From: Amnibacterium kyonggiense
GTDB lineage: Bacteria; Actinomycetota; Actinomycetes; Actinomycetales; Microbacteriaceae
Length of the DNA stretch: 64,000 nt
NCBI RefSeq assembly: GCF_004364555.1
Contig: NZ_SOAM01000004.1
Location: 248,001 to 312,000, forward strand
Direction: 5' to 3'
Below, one piece after another: positions 625-55,368 of the stretch (the stretch's first letter is position 1; each line of letters opens with the position of its first letter). A model generated the notes under the pieces. The model did no database searches. It worked only from the letters and a program-made list of their open reading frames with translations, and was not told the origin of the DNA. The position numbers and the translations under genes were made by a program.

Positions 625-630
625 CGGTCC

Positions 631-636
631 ACGCTA
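631..636 (-). promoter_or_regulatory. -10 element for leaderless deoA
   Basis: On the minus strand TAGCGT is followed by exactly six bases (GGACCG) and then the GTG start of deoA. With a usual 6-7 nt gap from -10 to transcription start, the mRNA would begin at the start codon. No clear -35 is seen. Confidence 0.5.
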
Positions 637-658
637 CCGACGCCGACCGGGCCCGGGC

Positions 659-1303
659 TCACCGCGCTGCGACCGGCCCGACGGTCATGAACGCGGGTCC
701 CGGCGCGCAGGCGACCGCCTTCGGGTCCGAATAGAAGAACGCCGTCGTCGAGTGCGGCGGGTACACGCGGTAGCCGTCGCCCTTCCGCACCGTGCAGCCG
801 TCGAGCGGGCCGCCGTTCGTGCCGATGTTCACGATCGACAGCGGTGCGGCGACCGTGTCGCCGGCCTGCAGCGTCAGCGTGCGGACGTCGGACTGGTTCC
901 GCGTCGCCGGCCTGCCGAGCTGCGTGCCGTTCCCGTCGCCGACCACGGAGACGCCCGGCGTGCCGCGCAGCGCGCACGGGGTGCCGCCGGTGTTCGTGAA
1001 GAGCACCTGGTACCCGACGCTGCCCGCACCGCCGCCGTCCCGATCCGCGATGACGCTCACGCCGAGGTCCGTGCACTGGTTCGCCGGGCGCCCGGGATCC
1101 GGATCCGCGCGCGTCGTCGTCGGCTCGGGCGTCGCGGTGGGCGCCGTCTCGGTCGGCGTCGGGGCCGCGCTCGAGGGCGGGGCGGACGCGGTGGGCGCGA
1201 CCGTGATCGTCGGCGAGGACGTCGGCTGCGTCGCCTGCGACCCGCATCCCGTCAGCGCCAGCACCAGCGCGGCGCCGAGCGCCGCTCCCCCGAGGACCCG
1301 CAT
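659..1303 (-). CDS. DUF4232 lipoprotein
   Basis: A 214-residue exported lipoprotein. Residues 1-20 form a lipoprotein signal with lipobox LTGC. A Thr/Pro/Ala/Ser-rich linker of about 50 residues follows, then a DUF4232 domain to the end (CTDLGVSVIADRDGG, GYQVLFTNTGGTPCALRGTPG, near-terminal YSDPKAVAC). DUF4232 proteins are common in actinomycetes, fold as a beta-sandwich and have no established function. The ATG at 1303 is chosen because it starts the signal peptide and has a -10-like TACGGT 6 nt upstream. It lies between deoA and a divergent deaminase gene, but nothing ties it to nucleosides. Confidence 0.85.
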   Translation of the reverse strand: MRVLGGAALGAALVLALTGCGSQATQPTSSPTITVAPTASAPPSSAAPTPTETAPTATPEPTTTRADPDPGRPANQCTDLGVSVIADRDGGGAGSVGYQVLFTNTGGTPCALRGTPGVSVVGDGNGTQLGRPATRNQSDVRTLTLQAGDTVAAPLSIVNIGTNGGPLDGCTVRKGDGYRVYPPHSTTAFFYSDPKAVACAPGPAFMTVGPVAAR

Positions 1304-1309
1304 GGCTGC

Positions 1310-1315
1310 ACCGTA
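1310..1315 (-). promoter_or_regulatory. -10 element for the leaderless DUF4232 gene
   Basis: Minus-strand TACGGT, six bases (GCAGCC), then the ATG at 1303. The spacing is the same as for deoA and many other genes in the window. Confidence 0.5.
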
Positions 1316-1375
1316 GCCCGCTCCGGCGACCGGCCGGTGGTCCCACGACGGCCGGGACTGCTCCCGCGGTCCTCC

Positions 1376-1381
1376 TAGGCT
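1376..1381 (+). promoter_or_regulatory. -10 element for the leaderless amidohydrolase gene
   Basis: TAGGCT, six bases (CGTCCG), then the GTG at 1388. No Shine-Dalgarno sequence precedes the start. Confidence 0.5.
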
Positions 1382-1387
1382 CGTCCG

Positions 1388-2779
1388 GTGGCTCCCGTGG
1401 ACCTGCTCATCAGCGATGCGACCGTCCTCACGCACACGGAGGGCGCGGCACCCGGCTACCCGGACGATCCCGGCGCAGCCCGGGCGGTCGCGCACCTGCT
1501 CGAGCACCACGACGTCGGGATCGCGGACGGCGCGATCGCCTGGGTGCTGCCGACCGGCACCGCGGCGCCGGAGGAGCGCGAGGGCGCCCGCGTGATCGAC
1601 GGCCGCGGCCGCCTCGCCATGCCGGGGCTCATCAACTGCCACACCCACTCCGCCATGACGATGTTCCGCGGGTCGGCGGAGGACGTGCCGGTGCACTCGT
1701 GGTTCAACGACCACATCTGGCCGATGGAGGTGAACCTCACGCCGCACGACGTCGCACTCGGGGCCCGCCTGGCGATCGCGGAGATGCTGCTCGCCGGTGT
1801 GACCACCTTCTGCGACCACTACTTCTCGATGGACGAGATCGCGAAGGAGGTGTCGGCGAGCGGCGCCCGCGCCGTGCTGGCGCCGACCTACTTCTCGTCG
1901 GAGGGGGCGGCCGGGCTGGACCGCTCGGCGGCCTTCGCCGCGGAGTGGCACGGCGCCGCCGACGGCCGCATCACCGCGATGATGGGCCCGCACGCGACCT
2001 ACACGGTCGTCGACGCCGACCTCGAGCGCACCGCGCGCATCGCGATGGAGCTCGGGATCCGCACCCACCTCCACGCCGCGGAGGGCATGTTCCAGACCGA
2101 GTCGAGCCTCGAGCAGCGCGGCGTCACGCCGATGCAGGTGCTCCAGGACACGGGGCTCCTCGAAGCGGGCGTGCTCATCGCGCACGGCGCGGGCATCACG
2201 CCCGACGACGTCCGATGGCTCGCCCCGGTCGCCGACCGGATCGGCGTCGCGGCCTGCGACAAGGTCTACCTGAAGCACGCGCAGCAGAGCACGACGCCCG
2301 TGCGCCTGCTCCACGACGCCGGCGTCCCGGTCGGCATCGGCACGGACGGCCCGGCCTCCGGCAACACGCTCAGCGTGCTCGAGAGCATGCGGACGCTCTC
2401 GCTCGTCGAGAAGCAGAAGGAGGCGGACGCCACCTGGCTGACGAGCGCGCACGCGCTCGACCTCGCGACCCGGCAGAGCGCACTCACGGCGGGGCTCGGC
2501 GACCGGATCGGCGCGCTCCTCCCCGGCCGGCGCGCGGACGTCGTCCTGGTCGACCTCGGCCGGCCGCACCTGCAGCCCCTGCACGACATCGCCGCCGCGC
2601 TCGTGCTCAGCGTGCAGGAGTCGGACGTCCGCACCGTCCTCGTCGACGGTCGCGTCGTCGTCGACGAGGGGCGGCTGACGACGCTCGACGTGCAGGAGGC
2701 GATCGACGGCCTGACCGCCCGCATCCCGCAGCTGCGCGACCGCTCGCACGGCCGCCGCATCCAGGACTACGCCCCCTGA
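1388..2779 (+). CDS. Amidohydrolase, SAH/MTA/adenosine deaminase-like
   Basis: A 463-residue metal-dependent hydrolase of the TRZ/ATZ (MtaD/SahH deaminase) group, which deaminates S-adenosylhomocysteine, methylthioadenosine or related purine compounds. The metal motif HxH is at H85/H87 (NCHTHSAMT), a second histidine pair at H227/H229 (HLHAAE), then IAHGAGI and GTDGPASGN, the order expected for the alpha/beta barrel. The C-terminal composite domain ends ADVVLVDLGRPHLQPLHD. About 20 extra residues near positions 16-40 (Ala/His-rich) lengthen the N-terminal beta part. It stands beside nucleoside salvage genes, so a purine nucleoside or its thioether is the likely substrate. Exact specificity cannot be read from the sequence; guanine or cytosine-type deaminases are alternatives. 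Confidence 0.82.
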   Translation: MAPVDLLISDATVLTHTEGAAPGYPDDPGAARAVAHLLEHHDVGIADGAIAWVLPTGTAAPEEREGARVIDGRGRLAMPGLINCHTHSAMTMFRGSAEDVPVHSWFNDHIWPMEVNLTPHDVALGARLAIAEMLLAGVTTFCDHYFSMDEIAKEVSASGARAVLAPTYFSSEGAAGLDRSAAFAAEWHGAADGRITAMMGPHATYTVVDADLERTARIAMELGIRTHLHAAEGMFQTESSLEQRGVTPMQVLQDTGLLEAGVLIAHGAGITPDDVRWLAPVADRIGVAACDKVYLKHAQQSTTPVRLLHDAGVPVGIGTDGPASGNTLSVLESMRTLSLVEKQKEADATWLTSAHALDLATRQSALTAGLGDRIGALLPGRRADVVLVDLGRPHLQPLHDIAAALVLSVQESDVRTVLVDGRVVVDEGRLTTLDVQEAIDGLTARIPQLRDRSHGRRIQDYAP

Positions 2780-2784
2780 GGACT

Positions 2785-2847
2785 GCTGGTTCACCGATAC
2801 GGAGATCCGCGCGCGGAGCGCCCGGATCTCCGTATCGGTGAACCAGC
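2785..2847. repeat. Palindrome family A, copy 1; probable bidirectional terminator
   Basis: A perfect 25-bp inverted repeat: the left arm is 2785-2809, the right arm 2823-2847, with a 13-nt loop. The core is GATACGGAGATCCG. It lies between convergent genes (deaminase ending 2779, permease ending 2858) and would form a very stable hairpin in either transcript. There is no T-tract. Related copies are at 8666-8728 and 49751-49817. Confidence 0.85.
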
Positions 2848-2857
2848 GACGGAGGGG

Positions 2858-6926: not shown

Positions 6927-6948
6927 GTGCCCTCCTTGACGCAGGACG

Positions 6949-6978
6949 GCCGGAGCCGGGCGGGTGCCCGGCTCCGGC
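6949..6978 (-). terminator. Intergenic hairpin between BMP lipoprotein and ATPase genes
   Basis: A perfect 13-bp stem (6949-6961 with 6966-6978) and a 4-nt loop GGGT lie 20 nt after the lipoprotein stop and before the ATPase ribosome-binding site. Such hairpins after binding-protein genes usually protect the upstream mRNA and reduce read-through, giving excess binding protein over transporter. Confidence 0.7.
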
Positions 6979-6998
6979 TCGAACCGAATTGCTTCTTC

Positions 6999-8087: not shown

Positions 8088-8239
8088 GGAGGGACCCTTC
8101 GTCAGGTGCTGTGAAGCCGTGCAGCGCGTGTGGGCGCGGCGGGCCGTCCGTCAGGGTAATGACGCCGTGTTACGGACGACGACCTCGTGCACCGCCTGCG
8201 GCGGATGGTTATCGATCCGATACCCCTGGAACCCGGGGG
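8088..8239 (-). promoter_or_regulatory. Leader region between cdd and the BMP lipoprotein gene
   Basis: 152 bp between two minus-strand genes. It holds an inverted repeat TATCG-ATC-CGATA at 8210-8222 and a weak ACCCC/GGGGT hairpin (8222-8240) touching the cdd stop. Either could be a terminator for cdd or a regulatory site for the transporter. No convincing -35/-10 pair was seen, so a separate promoter here is only an inference. Confidence 0.3.
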
Positions 8240-9896: not shown

Positions 9897-9902
9897 ACAG
9901 TA
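9897..9902 (-). promoter_or_regulatory. -10 element for leaderless manC
   Basis: Minus-strand TACTGT, six bases (GGCCCC), then ATG. This matches the leaderless spacing seen elsewhere in the window. Confidence 0.45.
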
Positions 9903-13759: not shown

Positions 13760-13765
13760 TAGCGT
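13760..13765 (+). promoter_or_regulatory. Possible -10 for the 13775 gene
   Basis: TAGCGT lies 9 nt before the GTG at 13775. This is a slightly longer gap than the 6 nt common in the window, so the message would be leaderless or carry only a few leader bases. Confidence 0.35.
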
Positions 13766-13774: not shown

Positions 13775-15781
13775 GTGGGACGACGAACGGAAGGCGCGGG
13801 ATCGAGGCGGATCCTCGCGGCGGTGGCGGCGGGCGCGCTGAGCGTGGCGACCCTGACCGGCCTGGTCGCCGCTCCCGCGAACGCGGTCACGCCGACGCCG
13901 ACGGTCACCTCCAAGCCCACCTCAAAGCCCACCGGGAAGCCCACGCCCTCCCCCACGGCGACGCCCTGGCCCGTCGGCGTCGCGCTGCAGGCCCGGGTCG
14001 CCGTGAACGGCGCCGTGCTCACGCTGCCCGCGACCGACGGGCTGCGCGACCGGACGACCGTGCGCGTCCTGGCCGCCTCCGGCGGGAAGGTCGACCTCGA
14101 CGCCTACCGCGGGAAGAAGGTCGTCCACCTCGCCGCCCGGATCGCGCTCCGGAAGGTGCAGCAGGGCTGGGCGAAGACGATCACCGTCGACGCCGCCGAC
14201 CTGACGACGGGGACCTGGCGGCTCCGCACGAAGCGCTCCGACCTGCCCGGCGTCTGGGCGTGGGGCACGACCTCCGTCCGCGTGGGGTCCGGCGCCGCCG
14301 TCCACGTTGCGGTCCGACCGGCCGCGACCGTGCTCTACCCGTACCGGGACGGCGTCCTCGATGCGGCGGTCGTCCGCGTGACCGGGCAGGACGAGACGCG
14401 GACGGCGGTGCCCGTCGTCGGCACGGTCCGCATCGACGCGGGCCGGAAGCACCTGACGCGAACGCTGTCGAAGGCCGGCGCCGCGTCGCTGCCGGTGACG
14501 GCGCTGCCCCTCGGTCCGGCGACGCTCACCACCACGGTCACCGGCCCGACGGGGAAGAAGGCGGTGCGCCGCACGGCGTTGACCCTCGCGCCGACCGCGG
14601 TCGGGAGCCTCCGCATCGCGCGGTCCTCGGACACCGTGCAGCCGGTGGTCGACGGTCTGCTCGACTCCGTCGTGCTGACGACCTCGGGTGCGGCGTCCGG
14701 CGGCTCGCCGGCGAAGGTCTCCGGGACCCTGACGGTGTCCAAGGGGAGCACGGTCGCGCAGCGGTTCGTCGTGAAGGACGGGAAGCAGCACGCCTTCACC
14801 TGGAACGGGCGCGTCAAGGGCGTCGTCGTCCCCGGCACCTGGACCGCGACCCTCGCCCTCAAGGGACCGCAGGGCGTCGTCCGGACGAGGACGGCGAAAC
14901 TCGTCGTCACGAAGAAGCACCTGCCGTACGCGGTCCGCGAGATGTTCACGATCGCCGCCGGCAACCAGCAGGGGCTCGCCGTCCGGAACGGCTTCTTCTA
15001 CGTCGGCTACGACATCGGGAACGGGCAGTCGAAGATCGAGCGCTACGACGGCACGGGGATGCCGGCCGGCACGCTCGGCCCGCTGCCGATCGAGCACGTC
15101 GCGGAGCTCGCCTACTCCACGACCACGGACAGGATCTACGCGGCGAACGGCGGCAGCAGCACGCCGACGATGGTCTACGCGATCGACCCGGTGTGGGACC
15201 CGGACGCACCGCCCGCCGACCCGTCGACCGCGATCACGCAGCGGTTCGACCTCACCGCGCTCGGCGTCAACGGCATGGTCGCGGTCGACGACGTGAACAA
15301 GCGGCTCCTGGTCTTCTCGAGCACGGCGAAGAGCTCCGGCTACCAGGTGAGCTCCGTGACGCTCACCGACACCCCCGTCCTCGATGCGAACGGCGCGCCC
15401 GTGCTGAACGACGACGGCACGCCGAAGGTCGTCCCGGCGGGCACCGTCACCGCGACCGTCCCGGTGTCGATCGACGGCGTGCCGCAGGGCATCGACCTCG
15501 TCGGGCAGCAGCTCTGGATCTACACGAGCCTGAAGAAGGTCAACCACGTCGCGAAGTACGACCTGCGGTCGAACGCGCTGCTGACGGCGTCCGCCGCGAC
15601 CGCCTCGTCCGACCTGTACTGGGGCGGCGAGGGCGAGGGCATGGCCACCGTCCAGGCGACGGACACCGGCGACGGCCTCCCCGCATGGATCTACGTCGGC
15701 GCCCACGACCTGATGTACAAGAAGAACCCGCTCGCGCCGAACCACATCGGACAGCTGGTCCCGGTCACCGACAACGACTGA
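13775..15781 (+). CDS. Secreted protein with propeller-like C-terminal domain, unknown function
   Basis: I do not recognise this 668-residue protein. Residues 1-38 are a Sec signal peptide (RR near residues 11-12, then an Ala/Leu core ending near AAPANA). A Thr/Pro/Lys repeat follows (TPTPTVTSKPTSKPTGKPTPSP). Residues about 70-380 are Val/Thr-rich with repeated beta-strand patterns, resembling tandem Ig-like modules. From about residue 388 the style changes: FTIAAGNQQGLAVRNGFFYVGYDIGNG, YSTTTDRIYAANGG and PQGIDLVGQQLWIYTSLKK look like blades of a beta-propeller with repeated Tyr/Trp-Gly strands. No sortase motif or C-terminal membrane segment is present, so it is probably released. It stands alone, between the sdh operon and a regulator. 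Confidence 0.7.
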   Translation: MGRRTEGAGSRRILAAVAAGALSVATLTGLVAAPANAVTPTPTVTSKPTSKPTGKPTPSPTATPWPVGVALQARVAVNGAVLTLPATDGLRDRTTVRVLAASGGKVDLDAYRGKKVVHLAARIALRKVQQGWAKTITVDAADLTTGTWRLRTKRSDLPGVWAWGTTSVRVGSGAAVHVAVRPAATVLYPYRDGVLDAAVVRVTGQDETRTAVPVVGTVRIDAGRKHLTRTLSKAGAASLPVTALPLGPATLTTTVTGPTGKKAVRRTALTLAPTAVGSLRIARSSDTVQPVVDGLLDSVVLTTSGAASGGSPAKVSGTLTVSKGSTVAQRFVVKDGKQHAFTWNGRVKGVVVPGTWTATLALKGPQGVVRTRTAKLVVTKKHLPYAVREMFTIAAGNQQGLAVRNGFFYVGYDIGNGQSKIERYDGTGMPAGTLGPLPIEHVAELAYSTTTDRIYAANGGSSTPTMVYAIDPVWDPDAPPADPSTAITQRFDLTALGVNGMVAVDDVNKRLLVFSSTAKSSGYQVSSVTLTDTPVLDANGAPVLNDDGTPKVVPAGTVTATVPVSIDGVPQGIDLVGQQLWIYTSLKKVNHVAKYDLRSNALLTASAATASSDLYWGGEGEGMATVQATDTGDGLPAWIYVGAHDLMYKKNPLAPNHIGQLVPVTDND

Positions 15782-15812: not shown

Positions 15813-15818
15813 TACGCT
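15813..15818 (+). promoter_or_regulatory. -10 element for the leaderless XRE regulator
   Basis: TACGCT, six bases (GGCGCC), then the GTG at 15825. Confidence 0.5.
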
Positions 15819-17502: not shown

Positions 17503-18288
17503 TCAGAGGGTTTGCACGAGGCCGCCGTCGATCCGCAGGTCGGCGCCCGTGACATTGCCCGCCCGGCCGCCGGCGAGCAGCAGCACGAGGTCGGCGACCT
17601 CCTCGGGACGGGTGAAGCGGCCGGTGCTGAAGCCCGCCCGGGCCGCCCGGACGACGGACTCGGGGTCGACGCCGGATGCGGCGCCGAGCGTCGAGGCGAC
17701 ACCGCCGCCGCCGAGCCACAGGTCCGTCTCGACCGGGCCGGGGCTGATCGTGTTGAACCGGATGCCGGCCGGACCGAACTCCTTGGACAGCGACTTCGAG
17801 ATGTTCCAGAGCGCCGCCTTCGCGGCGGAGTAGTCGACGACGACCGGGTCCGGGAGGTAGGCGTTTACGGACGCGATCGAGACGACCGCGCCGCGGCCGC
17901 GCTCGACCATGCCCGGGAGGACGGCGCGGATCGCGCGAAGGGCGGCGAAGAGGTCGAGCTCGAAGGTCCGGCGCCAGTCGCCGTCGGACACGGCGAGGAA
18001 GCCGTCGGTGCGCGGGGCGACGGCACCCGCGTTGTTCACGAGGACGTCGACGTCGCCGAGCTCGGCCGCGCGCGCCACGAGCTCGGCCGGGCCGCCCTCG
18101 GTCGCCAGATCGACCTCGACCGGGTGCACCCGCCCGGCGTCGGCGAGCGTCTGCAGCGCGGGCGGCACCGACCGCGAGCCGGTCACCACGACGGCGCCCT
18201 CGTCGACGAGCGCGCGGGTCACGGCCAGGCCGATCCCCCGGCTGGCACCGGTCACGATCGCGAGGCGCCCCTCGAGCTCAAGATCCAC
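17503..18288 (-). CDS. SDR-family oxidoreductase
   Basis: A 261-residue classical short-chain dehydrogenase/reductase. The NAD(P) site is VTGASRGIG (about residues 13-21). DVLVNNAGA, a serine in VSIASVN and the catalytic YSAAK (Tyr and Lys 4 apart) follow, then the PG motif ISPGPVETDLW. A basic residue after the Rossmann strand (GSRSV) suggests NADP(H). The C-terminus GNVTGADLRIDGG is typical of the family. Its substrate is unknown. The GTG at 18288 has TACGGT 6 nt upstream. The hydrolase downstream may share its transcript. Confidence 0.87.
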   Translation of the reverse strand: MDLELEGRLAIVTGASRGIGLAVTRALVDEGAVVVTGSRSVPPALQTLADAGRVHPVEVDLATEGGPAELVARAAELGDVDVLVNNAGAVAPRTDGFLAVSDGDWRRTFELDLFAALRAIRAVLPGMVERGRGAVVSIASVNAYLPDPVVVDYSAAKAALWNISKSLSKEFGPAGIRFNTISPGPVETDLWLGGGGVASTLGAASGVDPESVVRAARAGFSTGRFTRPEEVADLVLLLAGGRAGNVTGADLRIDGGLVQTL

Positions 18289-18294: not shown

Positions 18295-18300
18295 ACCGTA
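18295..18300 (-). promoter_or_regulatory. -10 element for the leaderless SDR gene
   Basis: Minus-strand TACGGT, six bases (CGCGAC), then the GTG at 18288. Confidence 0.5.
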
Positions 18301-20229: not shown

Positions 20230-20235
20230 TAGCCT
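20230..20235 (+). promoter_or_regulatory. -10 element for the leaderless yihY-like gene
   Basis: TAGCCT, six bases (CGCGGG), then the GTG at 20242. Confidence 0.5.
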
Positions 20236-20241: not shown

Positions 20242-21495
20242 GTGAGCTACTCGCGCGACGATCAGGGCGTCCGCGACGAGGCGGCACCGGTCCGCGCCTC
20301 GGGTGCGCAGGAGGACGCCGCGCCGCGCCCCACCGGCATCGCCGGGCTGATCGACCGCGTCTTCAAGCTGCGCCCCGTACGCGTCTTCTTCCACTACGCC
20401 GGCGACAACGGGCCGCTCATCGCGTCCGGCATGACCTACCAGGCGTTCTTCGCGCTCGCCGGTGCGCTCTGGCTGTCCTTCGCGCTGCTCGGCTTCGCGC
20501 TGCGGGGGAACCTCGCGCTCCAGGCGAGCGTGTTCGGCGCGATCAACCAGTTCCTGCCGGGCCTCATCGGGTACGACATCGCCGGCACGCAGGTCCAGGG
20601 CGCCATCGACAGCGCGGCGCTGCTCGAGAACTCGTCGCTCTCCTGGTCGAGCGCGATCTCGCTGCTGATCGTGCTCTGGACCGCCGTCGGCTTCCTCGCG
20701 ACGCTGCGCACCGCGATCCGGATCATGTTCGGCCTGCCGAACGAGCAGGGGAACTTCATCCTCCTGAAGCTCCGCGACCTCGGGTACACCGTCGCGTTCG
20801 GCGCCGTCGTGCTGCTGACCGCCGCGATCACGGTGCTCAGCAACGCCGCGCTCGACGTCGTGCTGAGCCTGCTCGGGCTCGGGCAGGCCGGTCCGGTGCA
20901 GCAGGTGCTCACGGCGGCCGTCGCACTCGTGCTGCTCGCCGCGATCGAGACCGCCATGCTCGCGGCGGCGTTCCGCATCCTCTCGGGCATCCCGGTGCCG
21001 CACCGACGGCTGTGGGCCGGGTCGCTGCTCGGCGGCGTCGCGCTCGCCGTGCTGCAGACGCTCGCCTCCACACTCCTGCACTTCGGCACCAACAACCCGG
21101 TCATCAAGGGCTTCGCGGTCCTCGTGGGCCTGCTCGTCTTCTTCAACATCGTCTGCCAGCTGATCCTCCTCGCCGCCGCGTGGGTGGCGGTCGGCATGCT
21201 CGACGCCGGCATCGACGCCTCGTCGCTCTCGCCCGACCAGCGGGAGAACGCGGAGGCGCAGCGCCTCGAGGACGCCCGGCGGCTCGTGGCGCGCGCGAAC
21301 CGGGAGGCGCTCGAGGACCGCCTCCGGAACGCCCGCGGGCTCGCGCGGTGGCGCCTGTCGCGGCAGCTGCAGCGCGAGGTGCGGGACGAGGCGCGACGGC
21401 GGCAGGAGGTGCCGACGACGAGCGAGTACCGGGAGGCGCAGCAGCGCACGGGCGACAGCTCCCCGGACGAGCGCCAGGTGGAGCGCGCGGGCTGA
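20242..21495 (+). CDS. YihY/BrkB-family membrane protein
   Basis: A 417-residue integral membrane protein of the YihY (Virul_fac_BrkB) family. About 45 cytoplasmic residues precede six hydrophobic helices. The family stretch HYAGDNGPLIASGMTYQAFFAL lies before the first long helix, and NNPVIKGFAVLVGLLVFFNIVCQL near the end. The last 90 residues are strongly charged (Arg/Glu-rich: ARRLVARANREALEDRLRNA) and probably helical in the cytoplasm. The family is widespread and its function is still unsettled despite the old name ribonuclease BN. It is divergent from ptsI. Confidence 0.87.
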   Translation: MSYSRDDQGVRDEAAPVRASGAQEDAAPRPTGIAGLIDRVFKLRPVRVFFHYAGDNGPLIASGMTYQAFFALAGALWLSFALLGFALRGNLALQASVFGAINQFLPGLIGYDIAGTQVQGAIDSAALLENSSLSWSSAISLLIVLWTAVGFLATLRTAIRIMFGLPNEQGNFILLKLRDLGYTVAFGAVVLLTAAITVLSNAALDVVLSLLGLGQAGPVQQVLTAAVALVLLAAIETAMLAAAFRILSGIPVPHRRLWAGSLLGGVALAVLQTLASTLLHFGTNNPVIKGFAVLVGLLVFFNIVCQLILLAAAWVAVGMLDAGIDASSLSPDQRENAEAQRLEDARRLVARANREALEDRLRNARGLARWRLSRQLQREVRDEARRRQEVPTTSEYREAQQRTGDSSPDERQVERAG

Positions 21496-21619: not shown

Positions 21620-21625
21620 TAGGGT
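21620..21625 (+). promoter_or_regulatory. Possible -10 for the exonuclease III gene
   Basis: TAGGGT lies 8 nt before the GTG at 21634. It also covers an alternative TTG start at 21625, which argues against that start. Confidence 0.4.
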
Positions 21626-21633: not shown

Positions 21634-22473
21634 GTGGCGCAGCAGACGGTGAGACTGGCGACCGTCAACGTGAACGGCGTGCGGGCGGCGTTCCGGAAGG
21701 GCATGGGCGCGTGGCTCGACGGCCGCGGCGTCGACATCCTCGCGCTGCAGGAGGTGCGCGCCGAGACCTCCGACCTCGAGTCGCTGCTCGGCCCCGAGTG
21801 GAACGTCCTCCACGACGCCGCGACCGCGAAGGGCCGCGCCGGCGTCGCGATCGCGTCCCGGGGGAAGGCGCAGATCCACCGCGTCGCGATCGGCGAGGAG
21901 GACTTCGACACCGCGGGCCGCTGGCTCGAGGCGGACTACGCCGTGGGGGACGAGGTCGTGACCGTCGTGTCGGCGTACGTCCACTCCGGCGAAGCGGGCA
22001 CGCAGAAGCAGGTCGACAAGTACCGGTTCCTCGACGCGTTCGAGGCGCGGCTGCCAGAGCTCACCGCCCACAACCCCCTCGCGGTCGTGGTCGGCGACCT
22101 GAACGTCGCCCACCGCAGCCTCGACATCAAGAACTGGAAGGGCAACCTGAAGAACTCCGGCTTCCTGCCGGAGGAGCGCGCCTACTGGGACCGCTTCGTC
22201 GGCGCGGAGGGCGACGCGGACTACAACGCGGGCGGCGGCCTCGGCTGGGTCGACGTCGGCCGCCGCGCGGCCGGCGAGGTCCAGGGCCCGTACACCTGGT
22301 GGTCGTGGCGCGGGCAGACGTTCGCCAACGACGCGGGCTGGCGGATCGACTACCACCTCGCCTCCCCCGCGCTCGCGGAGCGGGTCGACGCGGTCGTCGT
22401 CGATCGCGCGGCGACCCGCGAGGAGCGATGGTCCGACCACACGCCCGTGGTCGTCGACTACCGCGTCGGCTGA
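21634..22473 (+). CDS. xthA: Exodeoxyribonuclease III / AP endonuclease
   Basis: A 279-residue exonuclease III-type enzyme for base-excision repair. Motifs in order are LATVNVNGVRAAF, LALQEVRAE (metal-binding Glu), a YVHSGE region, VVGDLNVAH (Asp/Asn pair), WVDVGRR, and WRIDYHLAS with the terminal SDHTPVVVDY (catalytic His-Asp). The GTG at 21634 is preferred to an in-frame TTG at 21625 because the latter falls inside a -10-like hexamer. It is followed by trpS after 42 nt, so read-through is possible. Confidence 0.93.
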   Translation: MAQQTVRLATVNVNGVRAAFRKGMGAWLDGRGVDILALQEVRAETSDLESLLGPEWNVLHDAATAKGRAGVAIASRGKAQIHRVAIGEEDFDTAGRWLEADYAVGDEVVTVVSAYVHSGEAGTQKQVDKYRFLDAFEARLPELTAHNPLAVVVGDLNVAHRSLDIKNWKGNLKNSGFLPEERAYWDRFVGAEGDADYNAGGGLGWVDVGRRAAGEVQGPYTWWSWRGQTFANDAGWRIDYHLASPALAERVDAVVVDRAATREERWSDHTPVVVDYRVG

Positions 22474-23559: not shown

Positions 23560-23565
23560 CAGGAT
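23560..23565 (+). promoter_or_regulatory. -10 element for the leaderless DAO-type gene
   Basis: CAGGAT, six bases (GACGGC), then the ATG at 23572. The spacing is identical to that of the other candidate leaderless genes. Confidence 0.4.
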
Positions 23566-29330: not shown

Positions 29331-30152
29331 GAGGACGGGTGGCTCGGGTTGCGCGCCCTCGTGCTCGACCGAACGTGCTCCGGCGACGGCGGCCGCACGC
29401 ATCGCCTGGTCCGGGTCGCTGCCGGCCGCGAGCGCCGCGGCGAGCGCGCCGCAGTAGGTGTCGCCCGCACCGGTCGTGTCGACGACCCGTGCCGCGCGGT
29501 CGGCCGGCACCGATCGCGCCCCCCACTCGGAGCCGTGCTCGCCGCGGGTCACGAGGAGCGACCGAGGAGCCGCGCCCGATGCGCGCAGCAGCGCCGCTTC
29601 GGACTCGTTCGCGACCACCGGATCCGCCAGGGCCAGCACATCGGCGGGGAGCTCTGCGAAGGGCGCGACGTTGAGCACGATCCGCGCCCCGGCCGCGCCG
29701 GCCCGCCGCGCCGCCTCGGCGACGACGCCGAGGTCGACCTCCAGCTGCAGCAGGAGGACGTCGCCGGCCGCGATCCCGTCGAGGGCGGCGAGGTCGTCGT
29801 CGCCGACCGCGGCGTTCGCCCCGGGCGACACGATGATCGTGTTCTCCCCGTCGTCCGCGACCGCGATGAACGCGCGCCCCGTCGGACCGGGCACGGTCCG
29901 CAGCCGGGTGACGTCGATCCGGAAGGCGGCGAGCCGGTCCCGGTAGGCGGCACCCTCCGCATCGTCCCCGACGGCGCCGATCATGCGCACGCGGGCGCCG
30001 GCCACGGCTGCGGCGACGGCCTGGTTCGCCCCCTTGCCGCCGAAGGCCGTCTCGGGATCGCCCCCGGTCAGGGTCTCCCCCGGCGCGGGATGGCGCTGCA
30101 CCCGCACCACCACGTCCACGTTCAGCGAGCCGAGCACCCAGACGTCCGCCAC
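29322..30152 (-). CDS. rbsK: Ribokinase (PfkB family)
   Basis: A 276-residue PfkB-family sugar kinase, most like ribokinase. The first PfkB signature is GGKGANQAVAAA near residue 41, the second DTTGAGDTYCGALAAAL with the catalytic Asp (GAGD). LLQLEV and VVANESEA are typical. It phosphorylates ribose, such as that released from nucleosides, to ribose-5-phosphate; other pentoses or deoxyribose are possible. The GTG at 30152 is 20 nt after the TetR stop on the same strand. A CACGAT hexamer 6 nt upstream could also allow an own leaderless transcript. Confidence 0.85.
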   Translation of the reverse strand: MADVWVLGSLNVDVVVRVQRHPAPGETLTGGDPETAFGGKGANQAVAAAVAGARVRMIGAVGDDAEGAAYRDRLAAFRIDVTRLRTVPGPTGRAFIAVADDGENTIIVSPGANAAVGDDDLAALDGIAAGDVLLLQLEVDLGVVAEAARRAGAAGARIVLNVAPFAELPADVLALADPVVANESEAALLRASGAAPRSLLVTRGEHGSEWGARSVPADRAARVVDTTGAGDTYCGALAAALAAGSDPDQAMRAAAVAGARSVEHEGAQPEPPVLGG

Positions 30153-30158: not shown

Positions 30159-30164
30159 ATCGTG
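30159..30164 (-). promoter_or_regulatory. Possible -10 for leaderless ribokinase mRNA
   Basis: Minus-strand CACGAT, six bases (GGAGCG), then the GTG. It is weaker than the others because GGAG could also serve as a close ribosome-binding site. Confidence 0.25.
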
Positions 30165-42497: not shown

Positions 42498-43736
42498 ATG
42501 GTGCAGCGCCGGTTCCCGAAGCCCGTCGACGTGTTCGAGTACCTGCAGTTCAAGAAGCCGCAGCTCGACCGGAAGAAGGCGCGGCTCGACGCCGCGCTCA
42601 CGATCGAGGACCTCCGGAGGATCGCGAAGCGGCGCACCCCGGCCGCGGCCTTCGACTACACGGACGGGTCCGCGGAGGCGGAGATCTCGATCAAGCGCGC
42701 CCGCCAGGCGTTCCGCGACGTCGAGTTCCACCCGCAGGTCCTCCGCGACGTCGCGCACGTGGACACCGCCGCGACCGTCTTCGGCGCGCCGTCCGCCATG
42801 CCCTTCGGCATCGCGCCGACCGGCTTCACCCGGCTGATGCAGACGGAGGGCGAGACCGCCGGCGCGGGCGCCGCTGCCGCCGCGGGCATCCCCTTCACCC
42901 TCTCGACGCTCGGGACGAACTCCGTCGAGGGCGTGAAGGCCGCGAACCCGCACGGACGGAACTGGTTCCAGCTCTATGTGATGCGGCAGCGGGAGATCTC
43001 CTACGGCCTCGTCGAGCGCGCGGCGCAGGCGGGCTTCGAGACGCTCTTCTTCACCGTCGACACCCCGGTCGCGGGCAACCGCCTCCGCGACAGGCGCAAC
43101 GGCTTCTCGATCCCGCCGCAGCTCACCGTGAGGACGATCGCCGACGCGCTGCCCCGGCCGTGGTGGTGGATCGACTTCCTCACGACGCCGAAGCTCGAGT
43201 TCGCGTCGCTGTCGGACACCGGCGGCACGGTCGGGGACCTGCTCGACATGGCCATGGACCCCACGATCTCCTTCGAGGACCTGAAGGTCATCCGCGACCT
43301 CTGGCCGGGCAAGCTCGCGATCAAGGGCGTGCAGACGCTCGAGGACGCGAAGACCTTCGCGGACCTGGGCGTCGACGGGATCGTGCTGTCGAACCACGGC
43401 GGCCGGCAGCTGGACCGCGCTCCGATCCCGTTCCACCTGCTGCCGGAGGTCGCCCGGGAGGTCGGCCGCGACACGGACGTGATCGTCGACACCGGGATCA
43501 TGAACGGCGCGGACGTCGTCGCGTCGATCGCGCTCGGCGCGAAGTTCACGCTCATCGGGCGCGCGTACCTGTACGGCCTGATGGCCGGAGGCCGGGCGGG
43601 CGTCGACCGGGCGATCGCGATCCTGTCCGACCAGGTGGTGCGGACGATGAAGCTGCTCGGCGCGCACTCGCTCGAGGAGCTGACCCCGGCGCACGTCACT
43701 CAGCTCGAGCGGCTCGTCCCCCGCGCCCGCGGCTGA
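42498..43736 (+). CDS. lldD: L-lactate dehydrogenase (FMN, quinone-type alpha-hydroxy acid oxidase)
   Basis: A 412-residue FMN protein of the alpha-hydroxy acid oxidase family. Key stretches are [12 protein letters not shown], the FMN region [44 protein letters not shown] and the catalytic H300 in [11 protein letters not shown], with ILDSGIRS-type region as [10 protein letters not shown]. It oxidises L-lactate to pyruvate and passes electrons to menaquinone at the membrane. Its place directly after rhaB (4 nt) suggests it deals with L-lactate from L-lactaldehyde. Mandelate or glycolate oxidase is an alternative. Confidence 0.88.
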
Positions 43737-43779: not shown

Positions 43780-43785
43780 CAGGAT
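43780..43785 (+). promoter_or_regulatory. -10 element for the leaderless lactonase gene
   Basis: CAGGAT, six bases (GGAGGC), then the GTG at 43792. GGAGG is too close to the start to be a normal ribosome-binding site, which supports leaderless initiation. Confidence 0.4.
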
Positions 43786-43791: not shown

Positions 43792-44766
43792 GTGACCGGG
43801 TTCTGGGTGGGCGGGTACACCGCCGATGACGCGACCGGAGGGGTGCGCCGACTGGATGCCGCCACCGGCATGAACGAGGTCGTCGTCGCGACCCCGGACC
43901 CCTCCTATCTGCTCGCCTCGCCGACCACGGACCTGCTCTACGCGGTGGACGAGGGCGGCGACGCGGTGGTCGCCCTCCGCGACGGCGTCGTCGTCGCGCG
44001 GGTCGCGGCGGCGGGCAGCGCCCCCTGCCACCTCTCGATCACCGCGGACGGAACGCTCCTGCTCGCGGCCTGCTACGGCGACGGCCGGGTCGGCGTCCAC
44101 GACCTCGCCGAGGACGGGACGCCGGGGCCCGCCCGGGCCCTGCCCGATCCCCCGCCCGCGTCGATCGGCCCGCACCCGGCGCAGGACGGCCCGCACGCCC
44201 ACAGCACGCTCGAGCTCGGCGATCTGCTGCTCGTCGCCGACCTCGGCACCGACCGGGTACTCGTGCACCGCCGCCGCGGCGCGGACTTCGCGTTCGACGG
44301 CGCGATCGCGCTGCCGGCGGGGTCGGGGCCGCGGGACCTCCTCCTCGTGCCGTCCGGGCCGGTGCTCGTGCTCGGGGAGCACGACGCGCGCATCCACGTG
44401 CTCGACGTCGCGGCCCGCAGCGTGCGCGTCTCCGTGCCGACGACCACCGATCCGGTGCGCGGCGATCAGGCGGCGGGGATGACCCTCGTCGGGCGGCGGC
44501 TCACCGCCGGGCTGCGCGGCAGCGACCGGATCGCCCTCCTCCGCCTCGACGACGACGGCGTCCCGGAACCGGTGGACGCCGCGCTCACGGGCGGCACGTG
44601 GCCGCGGCACCACGCGGTCGACGGCGACCGGCTGCTCGTCGCGAACGAGCGGTCGGGCACCGTGACCGCGCTCGCGTTCCGGTCGGACGAGTCGCTCGGC
44701 TCCCCCGGCCCGGTGGCGCGGATCCCCTCCCCCACCTTCCTCCTCGCGACGGGCGGCGCCGCATGA
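43792..44766 (+). CDS. pgl: Lactonase-family protein (6-phosphogluconolactonase, Pgl type)
   Basis: A 324-residue seven-bladed beta-propeller lactonase (Lactonase family, like E. coli PgL). Blades repeat the pattern of Ser/Ala-Pro-Cys-His-Leu (GSAPCHLSITADGTLLLAACYG, in part) and GPHAHSTLEL, with GPRDLLLVPSGPVLVL and WPRHHAVDGDRLLVANE. It lacks a signal peptide. It hydrolyses 6-phosphogluconolactone or other sugar lactones. Its stop is overlapped by the start of an ABC1/AarF gene (ATGA), an unusual partner. A role in rhamnose use (rhamnonolactone) is possible but the rest of that oxidative route is missing. Confidence 0.8.
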   Translation: MTGFWVGGYTADDATGGVRRLDAATGMNEVVVATPDPSYLLASPTTDLLYAVDEGGDAVVALRDGVVVARVAAAGSAPCHLSITADGTLLLAACYGDGRVGVHDLAEDGTPGPARALPDPPPASIGPHPAQDGPHAHSTLELGDLLLVADLGTDRVLVHRRRGADFAFDGAIALPAGSGPRDLLLVPSGPVLVLGEHDARIHVLDVAARSVRVSVPTTTDPVRGDQAAGMTLVGRRLTAGLRGSDRIALLRLDDDGVPEPVDAALTGGTWPRHHAVDGDRLLVANERSGTVTALAFRSDESLGSPGPVARIPSPTFLLATGGAA

Positions 44767-48283: not shown

Positions 48284-48297
48284 GCGCCGGCCGCTCC

Positions 48298-48303
48298 TAG
48301 GCT
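48298..48303 (+). promoter_or_regulatory. -10 of the MHS symporter gene
   Basis: TAGGCT lies 33 nt before the ATG at 48337, with TTCACT (48276-48281) 16 bp upstream as a weak -35 box. Confidence 0.4.
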
Positions 48304-48336
48304 GTCGGGGTCCTTCACGAACCCCTCGGAGACCCG

Positions 48337-49746: not shown

Positions 49747-49750
49747 CGGA

Positions 49751-49817
49751 CGGGTCCGTCGATACGGAGATCCGCGGCGCGAAGCGTCCCGGATCTCCGC
49801 ATCGGTGAACCGGACCC
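49751..49817. repeat. Palindrome family A, copy 3 (decayed left arm)
   Basis: The core GATACGGAGATCCG is followed by GCG-AAGCGTCC and the right arm CGGATCTCCGCATCGGTGAACCGGACCCG (in part). Outer arms CGGGTCCG/CGGACCCG still pair, but the left arm lacks about seven bases (GTTCACC) found in copies at 2785 and 8666. It starts 5 nt after the symporter stop. Confidence 0.75.
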
Positions 49818-49875
49818 GGCCATGTGCCGCCCGCGGTACGAGAGGCCGTCCGGGGGCGAGCATCATGGACTCCCG

Positions 49876-51672: not shown

Positions 51673-51675
51673 CGC

Positions 51676-51712
51676 CTCCTGATCCCGGCGCATCCCGCGC
51701 CGGGATCAGGAG
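51676..51712. terminator. Bidirectional terminator hairpin between convergent genes
   Basis: A perfect 16-bp stem (51676-51691 with 51697-51712) with a 5-nt loop lies immediately after the exporter stop. It faces the dehydrogenase gene on the other strand. No T-tract. Confidence 0.8.
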
Positions 51713-51810
51713 CCGGGACGGCGTTCAGGACGATCCGCCCTGCCGCGTCCTGCACTCGGCACGCGGTCCTGAGCCGCGCACGGACGCGCCGCCCCACCCC
51801 GCGCGGTCGG

Positions 51811-53283
51811 TCAGGCGAAGGGGGACGGGGTCATCGTGTACTTCGTGTCGAGGTACTCGTGGATCCCCTCGGCGCCGCCCTCGCGGCCGATGCCGGACTG
51901 CTTCACGCCGCCGAACGGGGCGGACGCGTTCGAGATGACGCCGACGTTCAGCCCCATCATCCCGGTCTGCAGCCGCTCGATCATCCGCTGACCGCGCGCC
52001 AGGTCCTTCGTGAACACGTAGGAGACGAGCCCGTACTCGGTGCCGTTCGCGATCCGGACGGCCTCGTCCTCGTCCGTGAACCGGACGATGGACACGACCG
52101 GTCCGAAGATCTCGGTGCGGAGGATGTCGCTGCCCGCGTCGACGCGGTCGAGCACCGTCGGCGCGTAGAAGGTGCCCGGGCCGTCCACGGGACCGCCGCC
52201 CAGCCTCACGTCGGCGCCGCGGCCGATCGCGTCCTGGACCAGGTCGTCCGCCTTCGAGACGGCGGCACGGTTGATGAGCGGCCCGATGCCGACGCCGTCC
52301 TCCGTGCCCCGCCCGACCTTCAGCGCCGCGACCTTCGCCGTGAGCCGCTCCGCGAACTCGTCCGCGACGGACTCGTGCACGATGAAGCGGTTCGCCGCGG
52401 TGCACGCCTCCCCCACGTTCCGGAACTTCGCGAGCATCGCCCCGGTGACCGCGGAGTCGAGGTCCGCGTCGTCGAACACGAGGAACGGGGCGTTGCCGCC
52501 GAGCTCCATCGAGGTCCGCAGCACGTTCTCCGCGGCCTGAGCGATGAGCTTCTTCCCGACCGGCGTGGACCCGGTGAAGCTGAGCTTGCGGAGGCGCGGG
52601 TCGCGGAGGACCGGCTCGGTGAGCGCGCCGGCCTTCGTCGTCGGCACCACGTTCAGCACGCCCGCGGGCAGCCCGGCCTCCTCGAGGATCCGCGCCGTGG
52701 CGAGCGTCGTCAGCGGCGTCAGCTCCGCGGGCTTGACGACGACGGTGCAGCCGGCCGCGAGGGCCGGGCCGATCTTCCGCGTCGCCATCGCGAGCGGGAA
52801 GTTCCAGGGGGTGATGAAGTAGCAGGGCCCGACCGGGTGCTGCGAGACGATCGTGCGCCCGGAGCCCTCCGGGTTCACGCCGTAGCGGCCCGTGATCCGC
52901 ACGGCCTCCTCGGAGAACCAGCGGAAGAACTCCGATCCGTAGACAACCTCGCCCGCGGCCTCCGCGAGCGGCTTGCCCATCTCCAGCGTCATGAGCAGCG
53001 CGAGGTCGTCCTTGCGGTCCTGCATGAGCTGCCAGGCGCCGCGGAGGATCTCGCCGCGCTTCCTCGGCGCGGTCGATGCCCACGCGTCCTGCGCGGCGAC
53101 CGCCGCGTCGAGCGCCGCGATCCCGTCCTCCGGCGTCGCGTCGGCGACCGACACGAGCACCGAGCCCGTCGAGGGGTCGAGGACGTCGAACCGCTCCCCG
53201 CCGCTCGCGTCCCGCCACTCGCCGCCGATCAGCAGCCCGGTGGGCAGCCCTCCGAGCAGCCTCGCCTCATCGTCCACGGACAT
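51811..53283 (-). CDS. gabD: NAD(P)-dependent aldehyde dehydrogenase (succinate-semialdehyde type)
   Basis: A 490-residue aldehyde dehydrogenase. Catalytic residues are E260 (SMELGGNAPF) and C294 (GEACTAANRF), with cofactor motif FTGSTPVGKKL and the substrate-side ITPWNFPLAMATRK. The layout resembles GabD, which oxidises succinate semialdehyde to succinate, and this family often uses NADP. The ATG at 53283 follows GGGAGG about 6 nt upstream, and TAGGAT further on may be its -10. No gab transaminase gene is nearby, so other semialdehydes remain possible. Confidence 0.87.
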   Translation of the reverse strand: MSVDDEARLLGGLPTGLLIGGEWRDASGGERFDVLDPSTGSVLVSVADATPEDGIAALDAAVAAQDAWASTAPRKRGEILRGAWQLMQDRKDDLALLMTLEMGKPLAEAAGEVVYGSEFFRWFSEEAVRITGRYGVNPEGSGRTIVSQHPVGPCYFITPWNFPLAMATRKIGPALAAGCTVVVKPAELTPLTTLATARILEEAGLPAGVLNVVPTTKAGALTEPVLRDPRLRKLSFTGSTPVGKKLIAQAAENVLRTSMELGGNAPFLVFDDADLDSAVTGAMLAKFRNVGEACTAANRFIVHESVADEFAERLTAKVAALKVGRGTEDGVGIGPLINRAAVSKADDLVQDAIGRGADVRLGGGPVDGPGTFYAPTVLDRVDAGSDILRTEIFGPVVSIVRFTDEDEAVRIANGTEYGLVSYVFTKDLARGQRMIERLQTGMMGLNVGVISNASAPFGGVKQSGIGREGGAEGIHEYLDTKYTMTPSPFA

Positions 53284-53330
53284 CGTGCCTCCCGTGGTCC
53301 GATCCTACGGAGGGGCGGGAGGGCGTCCGC

Positions 53331-53903
53331 TCAGACGGTCTCGACGCCGACCGCGCGGAACTCCTCCAGCGCCGCCGCGCTCGTCTCCGGCGCGACGCCC
53401 GCGACGAGGTCGGTCAGGACGCGGACGCGCTCGCCGCTCTCCAGCGCGTCGAGCGCGGAGGCGCGCACGCAGTAGTCGGTGGCGATCCCGACGACGTCGA
53501 GGTCGGTGATCCCGCGCTCGGCGAGCACCTCCGCCAGGCTGCGGCCGTCCTCGGTCGTCCCCTCGAACGCGGAGTAGGCGGGCTTCCCCTGCCCCTTCCG
53601 CACGTGCACCTCGATGTCGGAGGTGTCGAGGGCCGGGTGGTACTCGGCTCCGGGCGTGCCCGCCACGCAGTGCACGGGCCAGGTCACCGTGAAGTCCGGC
53701 GCCGCGGACGTCGCGAAGTGGCCGCCGTTGTCGTTCCCGCCGTCGTGCCAGTCGCGGGAGGCCGCGACGAGCGCGTACTCGTCGCGGTGCGCTGCGAGGT
53801 GCTCGCTGATGCGCTGCGCGACCGCGGCGCCGCCGTCGACACCGAGGGCGCCGCCCTCCGTGAAGTCGTTCTGCACGTCGACGATGAGCAGGCCCCGGGT
53901 CAT
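53331..53903 (-). CDS. pncA: Nicotinamidase
   Basis: A 190-residue isochorismatase-fold nicotinamidase, hydrolysing nicotinamide to nicotinate for NAD salvage. The catalytic triad is D9 (LLIVDVQNDF), K103 (VRKGQG) and C145 (ATDYCVRA). Metal ligands are D51, H53 (SRDWHDGG) and H62. The ATG at 53903 has CAGGAT 6 nt upstream, supporting a leaderless transcript. Confidence 0.92.
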   Translation of the reverse strand: MTRGLLIVDVQNDFTEGGALGVDGGAAVAQRISEHLAAHRDEYALVAASRDWHDGGNDNGGHFATSAAPDFTVTWPVHCVAGTPGAEYHPALDTSDIEVHVRKGQGKPAYSAFEGTTEDGRSLAEVLAERGITDLDVVGIATDYCVRASALDALESGERVRVLTDLVAGVAPETSAAALEEFRAVGVETV

Positions 53904-53909
53904 GCCTCC

Positions 53910-53915
53910 ATCCTG
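53910..53915 (-). promoter_or_regulatory. -10 element for leaderless pncA
   Basis: Minus-strand CAGGAT, six bases (GGAGGC), then ATG. The same arrangement precedes the lactonase gene. Confidence 0.4.
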
Positions 53916-53942
53916 ACCGACCTGGGAGCGCCGCGGGGGCGC

Positions 53943-55355
53943 TCAGCGGTTCGAGAGCCGCTTCCCGCAGGACCAGACGTCCGCCGTGAGCGAGTCGAGC
54001 GCCTGCTTCGCCGTCGAGCTGACGATCGGCGGACCGAGCGCGTAGAACGCGAACGTGAGCGGCGTCCCGTCCTTCGCCCGGATGATCCCGGCGAGGGTGT
54101 AGCCGGAGTCGATCCAGCCCGTCTTCGCGCGCACCTTCCCGTCCGCGCGCGACGCGGCGCCGGAGAAGCGGTCGCTGTAGGCGAGGGATCCGGTGCGGCC
54201 GGCGATCGGCAGGCCGTCGAACACGGGTCCGAGGCCGCCGCTCCTGTGCAGCACCTTCACGAACAGCTTCGTCAGGTACGAGGGCGGGATGCGGTTGTCG
54301 TCGCTGAGCCCGCTGCCGTCGACGACGCGGACGCCGGTCGGCGCGATCCCGTAGGCCTGCAGGGCCGGGACGACGGCGGCGTCGATGGCCGAGAACGTGT
54401 TGCCCGCGCCCGCCTCGATCGCCGTCACGCGGGCGAGGGCCTCCGCGATCGTGTTGTCCGAGACGATGAGCTCCTGCTGCACGAGCGTGCCGACCGGCTG
54501 CGACCGCACCGTGCCGAGCACCGCGGCGCCGCTCGGCGCGGTGCCGCGGACGACGGTCACCCCGCCGCCGAAGTAGGAGGCGAAGGCGGCGCCGGCACGG
54601 CCGATCGGGTCGGAGCCGCGCGGCGAGGTGTTCAGCGCCGGATTCGCGCGGTCGCCGTCGACCATCAGCGCGGTGATCTTCGGCGTGGAGCCGAGACGCC
54701 GCTCCTTCAGGTCCCACGTCGGCTGCCAGGTCGGGCCGCCGAAGTAGGACGCGTCGAGCACGATGCGGGTGATGCGCTGCCCGGGGTGCTTCGCCTTCCA
54801 CGCGGCCTTCACCTGCCGCGCGAGCGTCGACAGGTGCGGGGCGCCGGCGTAGGCTGTCGTCGTGCCGGCCGGGGTGCGGGACAGGGTGGGGTCGCCGCCG
54901 CCGACCAGCACGATCTCGCCCGCGCGGGAGCCCTGCACGACCTTCGTCGTGAGGCGGTGGTCGGGACCGAGCACCTCGAGCGCCGCGGCGGAGGTGAGCA
55001 CCTTCATGACGCTCGCGGCGCGGGATGCCTTCGAGCCGCCTCGGTCGAACAGGACCTCGCCCGTGCGGGCGTTCCGCACCTGGCCCTGGAAGCTGTGCAG
55101 TCGCGGGTCGCGCGCCGCGGCCGCGACGGAGCAGGTCCGGGCCACCGGCGCGGCCGTCCTCGTCCGCGTGGCGGTCGGGGTCGGCTTCGCACTCGCGGTG
55201 ACGGCGGGCGTGCTCGCCGCGGCGACCGGCGCGGTGCTCGACGCGATCGCGGCCGGCACGGGCTCGCCGAGCGCGTATCCCGCGGCCCAGCTCGCGGCGA
55301 TCAGCCCGACGAGCACGGCACCGCCGGAGGCGGCGAGGGCGGTCCGACTGCGCAT
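53943..55355 (-). CDS. dacB: D-alanyl-D-alanine carboxypeptidase (PBP4, peptidase S13)
   Basis: A 470-residue secreted penicillin-binding protein. A signal or anchor segment (residues 5-30) and an Ala/Thr/Pro-rich linker precede the transpeptidase-like domain. The active-site motifs are SVMK (S115 and K118), SDN in IVSDNTIAEAL and KTG in RAKTGWIDSG, all intact. The S13 insertion domain lies between. It trims D-alanine from cell-wall stem peptides. The ATG at 55355 has TACCCT 7 nt upstream. The gene stands beside tRNA-Thr. Confidence 0.9.
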   Translation of the reverse strand: MRSRTALAASGGAVLVGLIAASWAAGYALGEPVPAAIASSTAPVAAASTPAVTASAKPTPTATRTRTAAPVARTCSVAAAARDPRLHSFQGQVRNARTGEVLFDRGGSKASRAASVMKVLTSAAALEVLGPDHRLTTKVVQGSRAGEIVLVGGGDPTLSRTPAGTTTAYAGAPHLSTLARQVKAAWKAKHPGQRITRIVLDASYFGGPTWQPTWDLKERRLGSTPKITALMVDGDRANPALNTSPRGSDPIGRAGAAFASYFGGGVTVVRGTAPSGAAVLGTVRSQPVGTLVQQELIVSDNTIAEALARVTAIEAGAGNTFSAIDAAVVPALQAYGIAPTGVRVVDGSGLSDDNRIPPSYLTKLFVKVLHRSGGLGPVFDGLPIAGRTGSLAYSDRFSGAASRADGKVRAKTGWIDSGYTLAGIIRAKDGTPLTFAFYALGPPIVSSTAKQALDSLTADVWSCGKRLSNR

Positions 55356-55362
55356 GCCCGCC

Positions 55363-55368
55363 AGGGTA
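55363..55368 (-). promoter_or_regulatory. -10 element for leaderless dacB
   Basis: Minus-strand TACCCT, seven bases, then ATG. Confidence 0.4.

Follow-up and report, generated by a model that had tools for sequence, protein, structure and literature searches.

The 64,000-nucleotide (nt) window of Amnibacterium kyonggiense considered here (C4:248001-312000 of a 3.71 Mb genome) contains 14 genes in which a hexamer of the form TANNNT or SANNNT (S being C or G) lies just upstream of the start codon, and the same arrangement recurs across the genome. The new analysis indicates that these hexamers are very probably the -10 elements of housekeeping-type promoters from which transcription would begin at the start codon itself, with about a fifth of the genes being leaderless. 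The hexamer signal as such is real and strong. What the DNA itself demonstrates is the position and enrichment of the hexamer, the scarcity of Shine-Dalgarno (SD) sequences and of -35 elements, the position of the marked genes in transcription units, retention in relatives and the avoidance of purines ahead of the start codon. As such, the original prediction of widespread leaderless mRNA, drawn from the 14 genes, agrees with what is seen for TANNNT genes.

In the proposed mechanism, RNA polymerase carrying the main sigma factor would recognize the -10 element by its first T, second A and sixth T (T1, A2 and T6), mostly without a -35 element and probably assisted by the actinobacterial proteins RbpA and CarD. 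Initiation would fall on the first suitable purine 7-10 nt past the hexamer, presumably the first base of ATG or GTG, and the RNA would open with the start codon and be translated without an SD sequence. The genome contains 17 matches to Sigma70_r2, two to the RbpA family (C2:316694-317017 and C2:647851-648168) and two to the CarD_TRCF_RID family, namely one frame of 1,209 codons, probably Mfd/TRCF, and another of 283 codons, a possible CarD. In mycobacteria, both RbpA and CarD are reported to stimulate formation of the open complex (PMC5302886), and we infer that they serve the promoters described here.

Enrichment, gene context and retention of the hexamer

The signal was quantified in the window and 76 other stretches of its genome, which together make up 1.57 Mb (42% of the genome) and provide 1,397 called genes with 60 nt of upstream sequence. 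The gene caller uses codon statistics alone, is blind to motifs and SD sequences, and was trained twice, on 766 kb and then on 1.57 Mb. With the gap defined as the number of nt between the end of the hexamer and the start codon, TANNNT occurs 2, 2, 1, 1, 1, 0, 109, 47, 28, 11, 4 and 1 times at gaps 0 to 11, and gaps 6-9 comprise 195 of the 1,397 genes; the background at gaps 12-49 averages 3.5 per gap and reaches at most 11. The genome-wide excess at gap 6 over other offsets and shuffled sequence is clear (109 versus 2.0 ± 1.3, with a maximum of 5 in 50 dinucleotide shuffles), as the original prediction had anticipated, and 16,100 internal in-frame ATG/GTG codons give a scaled count of 0.1 at this gap and no peak. 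The rigid spacing that it had also claimed was slightly overstated, the real range being 6-9 with a peak at 6. A count near gene 5' ends that is free of start choice finds 129, 67, 29 and 16 in-frame ATG/GTG codons after TANNNT at gaps 6-9, versus 1, 1, 1 and 2 per out-of-frame register. An unsupervised mixture model with six classes, to which no motif was supplied, likewise recovers TA...T at -12 (19% of genes) next to AGGAG (13%).

The congener G006 behaves alike: TANNNT lies at gaps 6-9 before 86, 47, 33 and 5 of its 1,109 genes, and the mixture model yields TA...T classes at three gaps (15%, 10% and 6%) and an only diffuse SD class. Among the gap-6 TANNNT genes of the own sample, 56 start with GTG and 53 with ATG. 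As a side observation on small numbers, 20 of the 28 gap-8 TANNNT genes of this sample begin with GTG, but 2 of the 11 with gap 9 do.

Hexamers without the first T also peak, almost only at gap 6. Specifically, CANNNT reaches 69 (7.5 ± 2.6 in shuffles) and GANNNT 60 (13.4 ± 3.6) among the 1,397 genes, while AANNNT forms a small peak of 10 versus a mean of 2.6, and of 13 versus 1.4 in G006. The internal codons show codon-periodic peaks of 22-34 (scaled) for CANNNT and GANNNT at gaps 1, 4, 7, 10 and 13, but values of 0.8 and 1.6 at gap 6, which means that the gap-6 peak stands and that the gap-7 counts (20 and 19) are unreadable. Since both forms peak at gap 6, the CAGGAT and CACGAT cases that the original prediction had counted as leaderless mostly belong; they are backed as a class and individually less sure. 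The excess amounts to 181-187 TANNNT genes, depending on the background chosen, and about 108 SANNNT genes, that is, about a fifth of all genes.

SD-like 4-mers (GGAG, GAGG, AGGA or AAGG) are found in 4%, 11%, 11% and 0% (0 of 11) of the TANNNT genes with gaps of 6, 7, 8 and 9, in 35% of the SANNNT genes with gap 6, and in 50% of the rest. The 3' end of the 16S rRNA bears a normal anti-SD sequence; the sole 16S rRNA match (G000:C6:3848-5367) lies on a 5.6 kb contig, so that the assembly may have collapsed several rRNA copies into one. With respect to transcription units, TANNNT is rare in genes that lie at most 25 nt behind a co-directional gene (19/397), and is found in 50 of 260 genes with a co-directional neighbour at 26-100 nt and in 102 of 504 with an opposite-strand gene upstream.

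The own genome and G006 were combined into sets of 366 leaderless TANNNT genes, 195 SANNNT gap-6 genes and 1,923 other genes. The ortholog test against G006 used 130 of 212 mapped starts. The orthologs carry TANNNT at gaps 6-9 in 22 of 28 cases for TANNNT genes versus 3 of 86 for unmarked genes; the identity of the T1, A2 and T6 columns in the 22 pairs is 100% by construction and is not used as evidence. Relatives were further searched in 40 genomes, including six further genomes of the genus Amnibacterium. For the xth-like gene at 21634, TANNNT is present at gaps 6-8 in 99 of 104 distinct loci (109 minus five duplicates), with starts up to 8 codons away from the aligned position accepted. Most of these loci are from Microbacteriaceae and some from other families within the order, and they are not independent of each other. 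Other gap windows contain TANNNT in a mean of 1.2 of the 109 loci, and the remaining upstream region is variable in the 14 loci compared.

A separate observation concerns trpS, whose product is 89% identical to that of Amnibacterium setariae (Microbacteriaceae), the nearest named relative by this measure. This gene is led by TANNNT in 55 of 100 distinct loci (L038-L117 and L159-L187) but in none of the six whose protein is at least 75% identical to that of the window (the Amnibacterium type), a pattern that suggests a switch of initiation mode within the family.

Start position and competing explanations

In the two-genome sets, purines are avoided at -1 in gap-7 genes (22/94 versus 799/1,923 other genes) and at -2 in gap-8 genes (3/61 versus 794/1,923). 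In 190 control genes whose TANNNT lies at gaps 12-44 only, the purine share is 42% at both positions, and gap-6 genes do not differ significantly at -1 (70/195). Because a purine between the hexamer and the start codon would offer an earlier start, this avoidance fits initiation on the A or G of ATG or GTG, and the purine pattern on the whole fits this position rather than a fixed one 7 nt past the hexamer. The alternative, in which the polymerase always starts 7 nt past the hexamer and gaps of 7-9 produce leaders of 1-3 nt, would accommodate the range of gaps from 6 to 9 and a purine at -3, that is 7 nt past the hexamer, in 62% of 16 gap-9 genes. It is nevertheless quite improbable, as 121 of the 171 pooled genes with gaps of 7-9 have C at this distance and 35 have a purine, and as the positions from which such transcripts would start at gaps 7 and 8 are those where purines are avoided relative to the controls.

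Two other explanations of the signal were rejected. That the TA belongs to a stop codon (TAG or TAA) closing the preceding frame in densely packed operons could be suspected from TAG in half of the gap-6 TANNNT hexamers; this idea has next to no probability left, since their third letter is G in 50%, C in 41%, T in 6% and A in 3%, since the motif is rarest in packed same-strand genes and commonest beside an opposite-strand neighbour (19/397 and 102/504, as above), and since the T at position 6 would be left unexplained. An artefact of start selection or base composition is just as hard to maintain. It is true that the earlier reader picked the starts with the motif in view and that the motif-blind caller disagrees at 3 of the 14 starts in its second run, but the peak is present in motif-blind calls and is retained in relatives, and the shuffles, the internal codons and the in-frame versus out-of-frame counts contradict such an artefact.

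For the hexamers without the first T, the alternative that CAGGAT and GAGGAT are SD sequences (AGGA 7 nt before the start) rather than promoters is improbable too. Apart from the 35% of SANNNT gap-6 genes with SD-like 4-mers, it can point to the distance of 7 nt, which falls inside the SD spacing peak, to the AGGA present at 43792, 53903 and 23572, and to GGAGG-type sequences in relatives of 23572. Yet an SD-like 4-mer is absent from 84 of the 129 SANNNT gap-6 genes, which still form a sharp peak (84 at gap 6, whereas the remaining gaps from 0 to 29 average about 9), the middle letters of the hexamer are variable, and orthologs keep A2 and T6 with AGGA absent or altered (CACGAT/GACGAT, GAGATT/GAGAGT, CATGAT/CAGACT). 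The gene at 53903 has TAGGAT at gap 7 in the congener, although AGGA is kept there too.

Several observations weigh against the reading of the hexamers as promoters of leaderless genes. The 16 gap-9 genes of the two genomes have few purines at -1 and -2 (19% each) but do not avoid them at -3, and may start at the -3 purine. In the ortholog test, 82 of the 212 mapped starts were dropped for having no ATG or GTG at the mapped place, and retention is weaker for SANNNT, which 6 of 16 orthologs in G006 keep while 2 more have TANNNT. Beyond 100 nt behind a co-directional gene, TANNNT is present in 23 of 222 genes, half the frequency seen beside an opposite-strand neighbour. Finally, the share of SD-like 4-mers among SANNNT genes, together with about 21 of 129 members expected by chance, implies that some members of this class are SD genes or chance occurrences.

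Promoter architecture and known systems

Leaderless TANNNT genes show no excess of TTG at a -35 spacing of 16-19 nt (5/194 versus 3.8 ± 1.7 in shuffles); TTGAC is found in 2/194 versus 0.1 ± 0.4, and a few individual leaderless promoters may have a -35 element. Among leadered first genes, TTG-spacer-TANNNT occurs in 15/407 versus 1.5 ± 1.2 and TTGAC in 3 versus 0.3, in a looser test that counts any TANNNT within 145 nt. TGN precedes the leaderless TANNNT in 1 of 366 genes of both genomes (0 of 195 in the own genome) and the intergenic TANNNT upstream of own leadered genes in 12 of 169. Directly upstream of the SANNNT gap-6 hexamer, the place it takes in sigma-70 extended -10 promoters, TGN is present in 44 of 195 genes versus 54 of 1,923 other genes, and in part of this class only. 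SANNNT hexamers more often have A at position 5 (101/195 versus 44/366 for TANNNT) and are followed by G-rich bases, whereas only TANNNT genes are enriched in T at the fourth base upstream (110/366, versus 13/195 for SANNNT and 256/1,923 for others). By Pfam, no shared function is apparent in the TGN-SANNNT class, of which 10 own genes (of 24) were considered: 7 matched unrelated families. The PfkB gene of the window is a further member of this class.

The simplest reading of the SANNNT class is a single sigma factor with compensating contacts. More tentatively, and with considerable doubt, the data could reflect two largely exclusive leaderless designs: a bare TANNNT with little -35, almost never TGN, a gap of 6-9 and often a T four bases upstream, and a T1-less C/G-A-G-R-A-T with a gap of almost only 6 that is enriched in TGN, A at position 5 and GG after the hexamer. 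TGN with TANNNT and the -35 element would then serve mainly leadered genes, and the second design could use a different holoenzyme (another sigma factor or one of the two RbpA paralogs), which would couple promoter design to leader type. If this is true, joint selection of promoter architecture and leader type becomes testable.

Widespread leaderless expression is a known property of the phylum, and the original prediction was right to state that actinomycetes make many leaderless mRNAs (PMC3160421, PMC3898074, PMC4895711); the gap range of 6-9, the purine avoidance and the two proposed designs are a modest addition. Zheng et al. (2011) described TA-led leaderless genes at more than 20% of genes in Actinobacteria (PMC3160421), with the same TANNNT about 12 bp upstream, an uninformative middle in high-GC genomes, validation by dinucleotide shuffles and turnover between relatives; the present data go beyond that account in covering an Amnibacterium-group genome, the breakdown by gap, purine avoidance and the T1-less class. 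As in Mycobacterium tuberculosis (Cortes 2013, PMC3898074), the -10 element is TANNNT without a conserved -35, and the RNA start there is preferably a purine after C; TGN precedes TANNNT in 7% of cases in that species versus 1 of 366 leaderless genes here. In mycobacteria, a 5'-terminal ATG or GTG is necessary and sufficient for leaderless translation (Shell 2015, PMC4633059), and leaderless starts were measured (PMC3898074, PMC4633059), unlike those proposed here, which derive from sequence. In M. smegmatis, 40.5% of 5' untranslated regions are shorter than 10 nt (PMC5741613).

In Streptomyces coelicolor (Jeong 2016, PMC4895711), the -10 element is again TANNNT and 21% of primary start sites are leaderless, but a -35 (NTGACC) is present at 58.6% of all start sites, versus little -35 at leaderless TANNNT here, and leaderless mRNAs favour AUG (76.4%), whereas GTG equals ATG at gap 6 here. 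A similar arrangement exists in Deinococcus-Thermus, where close to a third of the genes of D. radiodurans have TANNNT about 6-7 bp before the open reading frame, mostly without -35; this is a different phylum, and the promoter role was shown there by mutation (PMC12340547). A literature search covering part of the journals found, among the entries listed, no account of leaderless genes in Amnibacterium or of a T1-less (CANNNT) class and, judged by title, none for Microbacteriaceae. The findings give independent sequence-based grounds to regard leaderless expression as a major mode in two Amnibacterium-group genomes, suggest a leaner make-up for leaderless promoters than for leadered ones, and provide a practical rule by which start codons can be corrected in both genomes.

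The 14 genes of the window

Table 1 Hexamers ahead of the 14 start codons in the window
Hexamer	Position	Strand	Gap and start	Gene product and remarks
TAGCGT	631..636	-	6 to GTG 624	glycosyl transferase family 3
TACGGT	1310..1315	-	6 to ATG 1303	DUF4232 protein; start picked motif-blind
TAGGCT	1376..1381	+	6 to GTG 1388	amidohydrolase
TACTGT	9897..9902	-	6 to ATG 9890	nucleotidyl transferase
TAGCGT	13760..13765	+	9 to GTG 13775	no Pfam match
TACGCT	15813..15818	+	6 to GTG 15825	helix-turn-helix regulator with MLTR_LBD
TACGGT	18295..18300	-	6 to GTG 18288	short-chain dehydrogenase
TAGCCT	20230..20235	+	6 to GTG 20242	BrkB family protein
TAGGGT	21620..21625	+	8 to GTG 21634	exonuclease/endonuclease/phosphatase family; called xth (our own label)
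CAGGAT	23560..23565	+	6 to ATG 23572	flavin adenine dinucleotide (FAD)-dependent oxidoreductase
CACGAT	30159..30164	-	6 to GTG 30152	PfkB kinase; TGC directly before the hexamer
CAGGAT	43780..43785	+	6 to GTG 43792	lactonase beta-propeller
CAGGAT	53910..53915	-	6 to ATG 53903	isochorismatase family
TACCCT	55363..55368	-	7 to ATG 55355	peptidase S13

All 14 hexamers and gaps had been read correctly in place and strand, 11 with a gap of 6 and the rest with gaps of 7, 8 and 9 (Table 1). That most of these genes lack a usable SD sequence also stands: 11 of the 14 have no SD-like 4-mer at -18 to -5 (judged by eye for 1388, 13775 and 18288, with the other starts from the called set), and in the other three, 23572, 43792 and 53903, AGGA is contained within CAGGAT. 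The motif-blind caller picks 12 of the starts exactly after training on 766 kb and 11 after training on 1.57 Mb; it prefers 1397 to 1388, 13823 to 13775 and, in the second run only, 18255 to 18288. By Pfam, the genes have ordinary functions, with 13 of the 14 matched.

Eight of the 14 genes can be compared with at least one relative, and six of them keep TANNNT or SANNNT (9890, 13775, 20242, 21634, 30152 and 53903). The ortholog of 9890 in G006 has TACAGT at gap 7. Before the aligned start of 13775, the sole matching relative, A. setariae (L038), has TAGCGT at gap 9, which backs the start at 13775. The gene at 20242 is preceded at gap 6 by TAGCCT in L038, TACAGT in L041 and L040 and TACGGT in L039, all of them Amnibacterium loci, and that at 30152 by GACGAT at gap 6 in L038 and L039, with nothing similar in the distant L055. 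At 624, the hexamer of the G006 ortholog is AAGGAT, likewise at gap 6, with T1 lost and A2 and T6 kept. The hexamer of 23572 is not cleanly kept, with TAGGAC in A. setariae and the GGAGG-type sequences in L039, L040 and L041. Among the relatives examined, none was usable for 1303, 1388, 15825, 43792 and 55355, and those of 18288 are distant paralogs only.

Elsewhere in the window, the start at 42498 (GAGGCT, gap 6) was left out, as it has GAGAGG and follows a co-directional gene at a distance of 4 nt. The aldehyde dehydrogenase gene at 53283 on the minus strand has TAGGAT 18 nt before its ATG as well as GGGAGG, and is a candidate for a short-leader promoter combined with an SD sequence.

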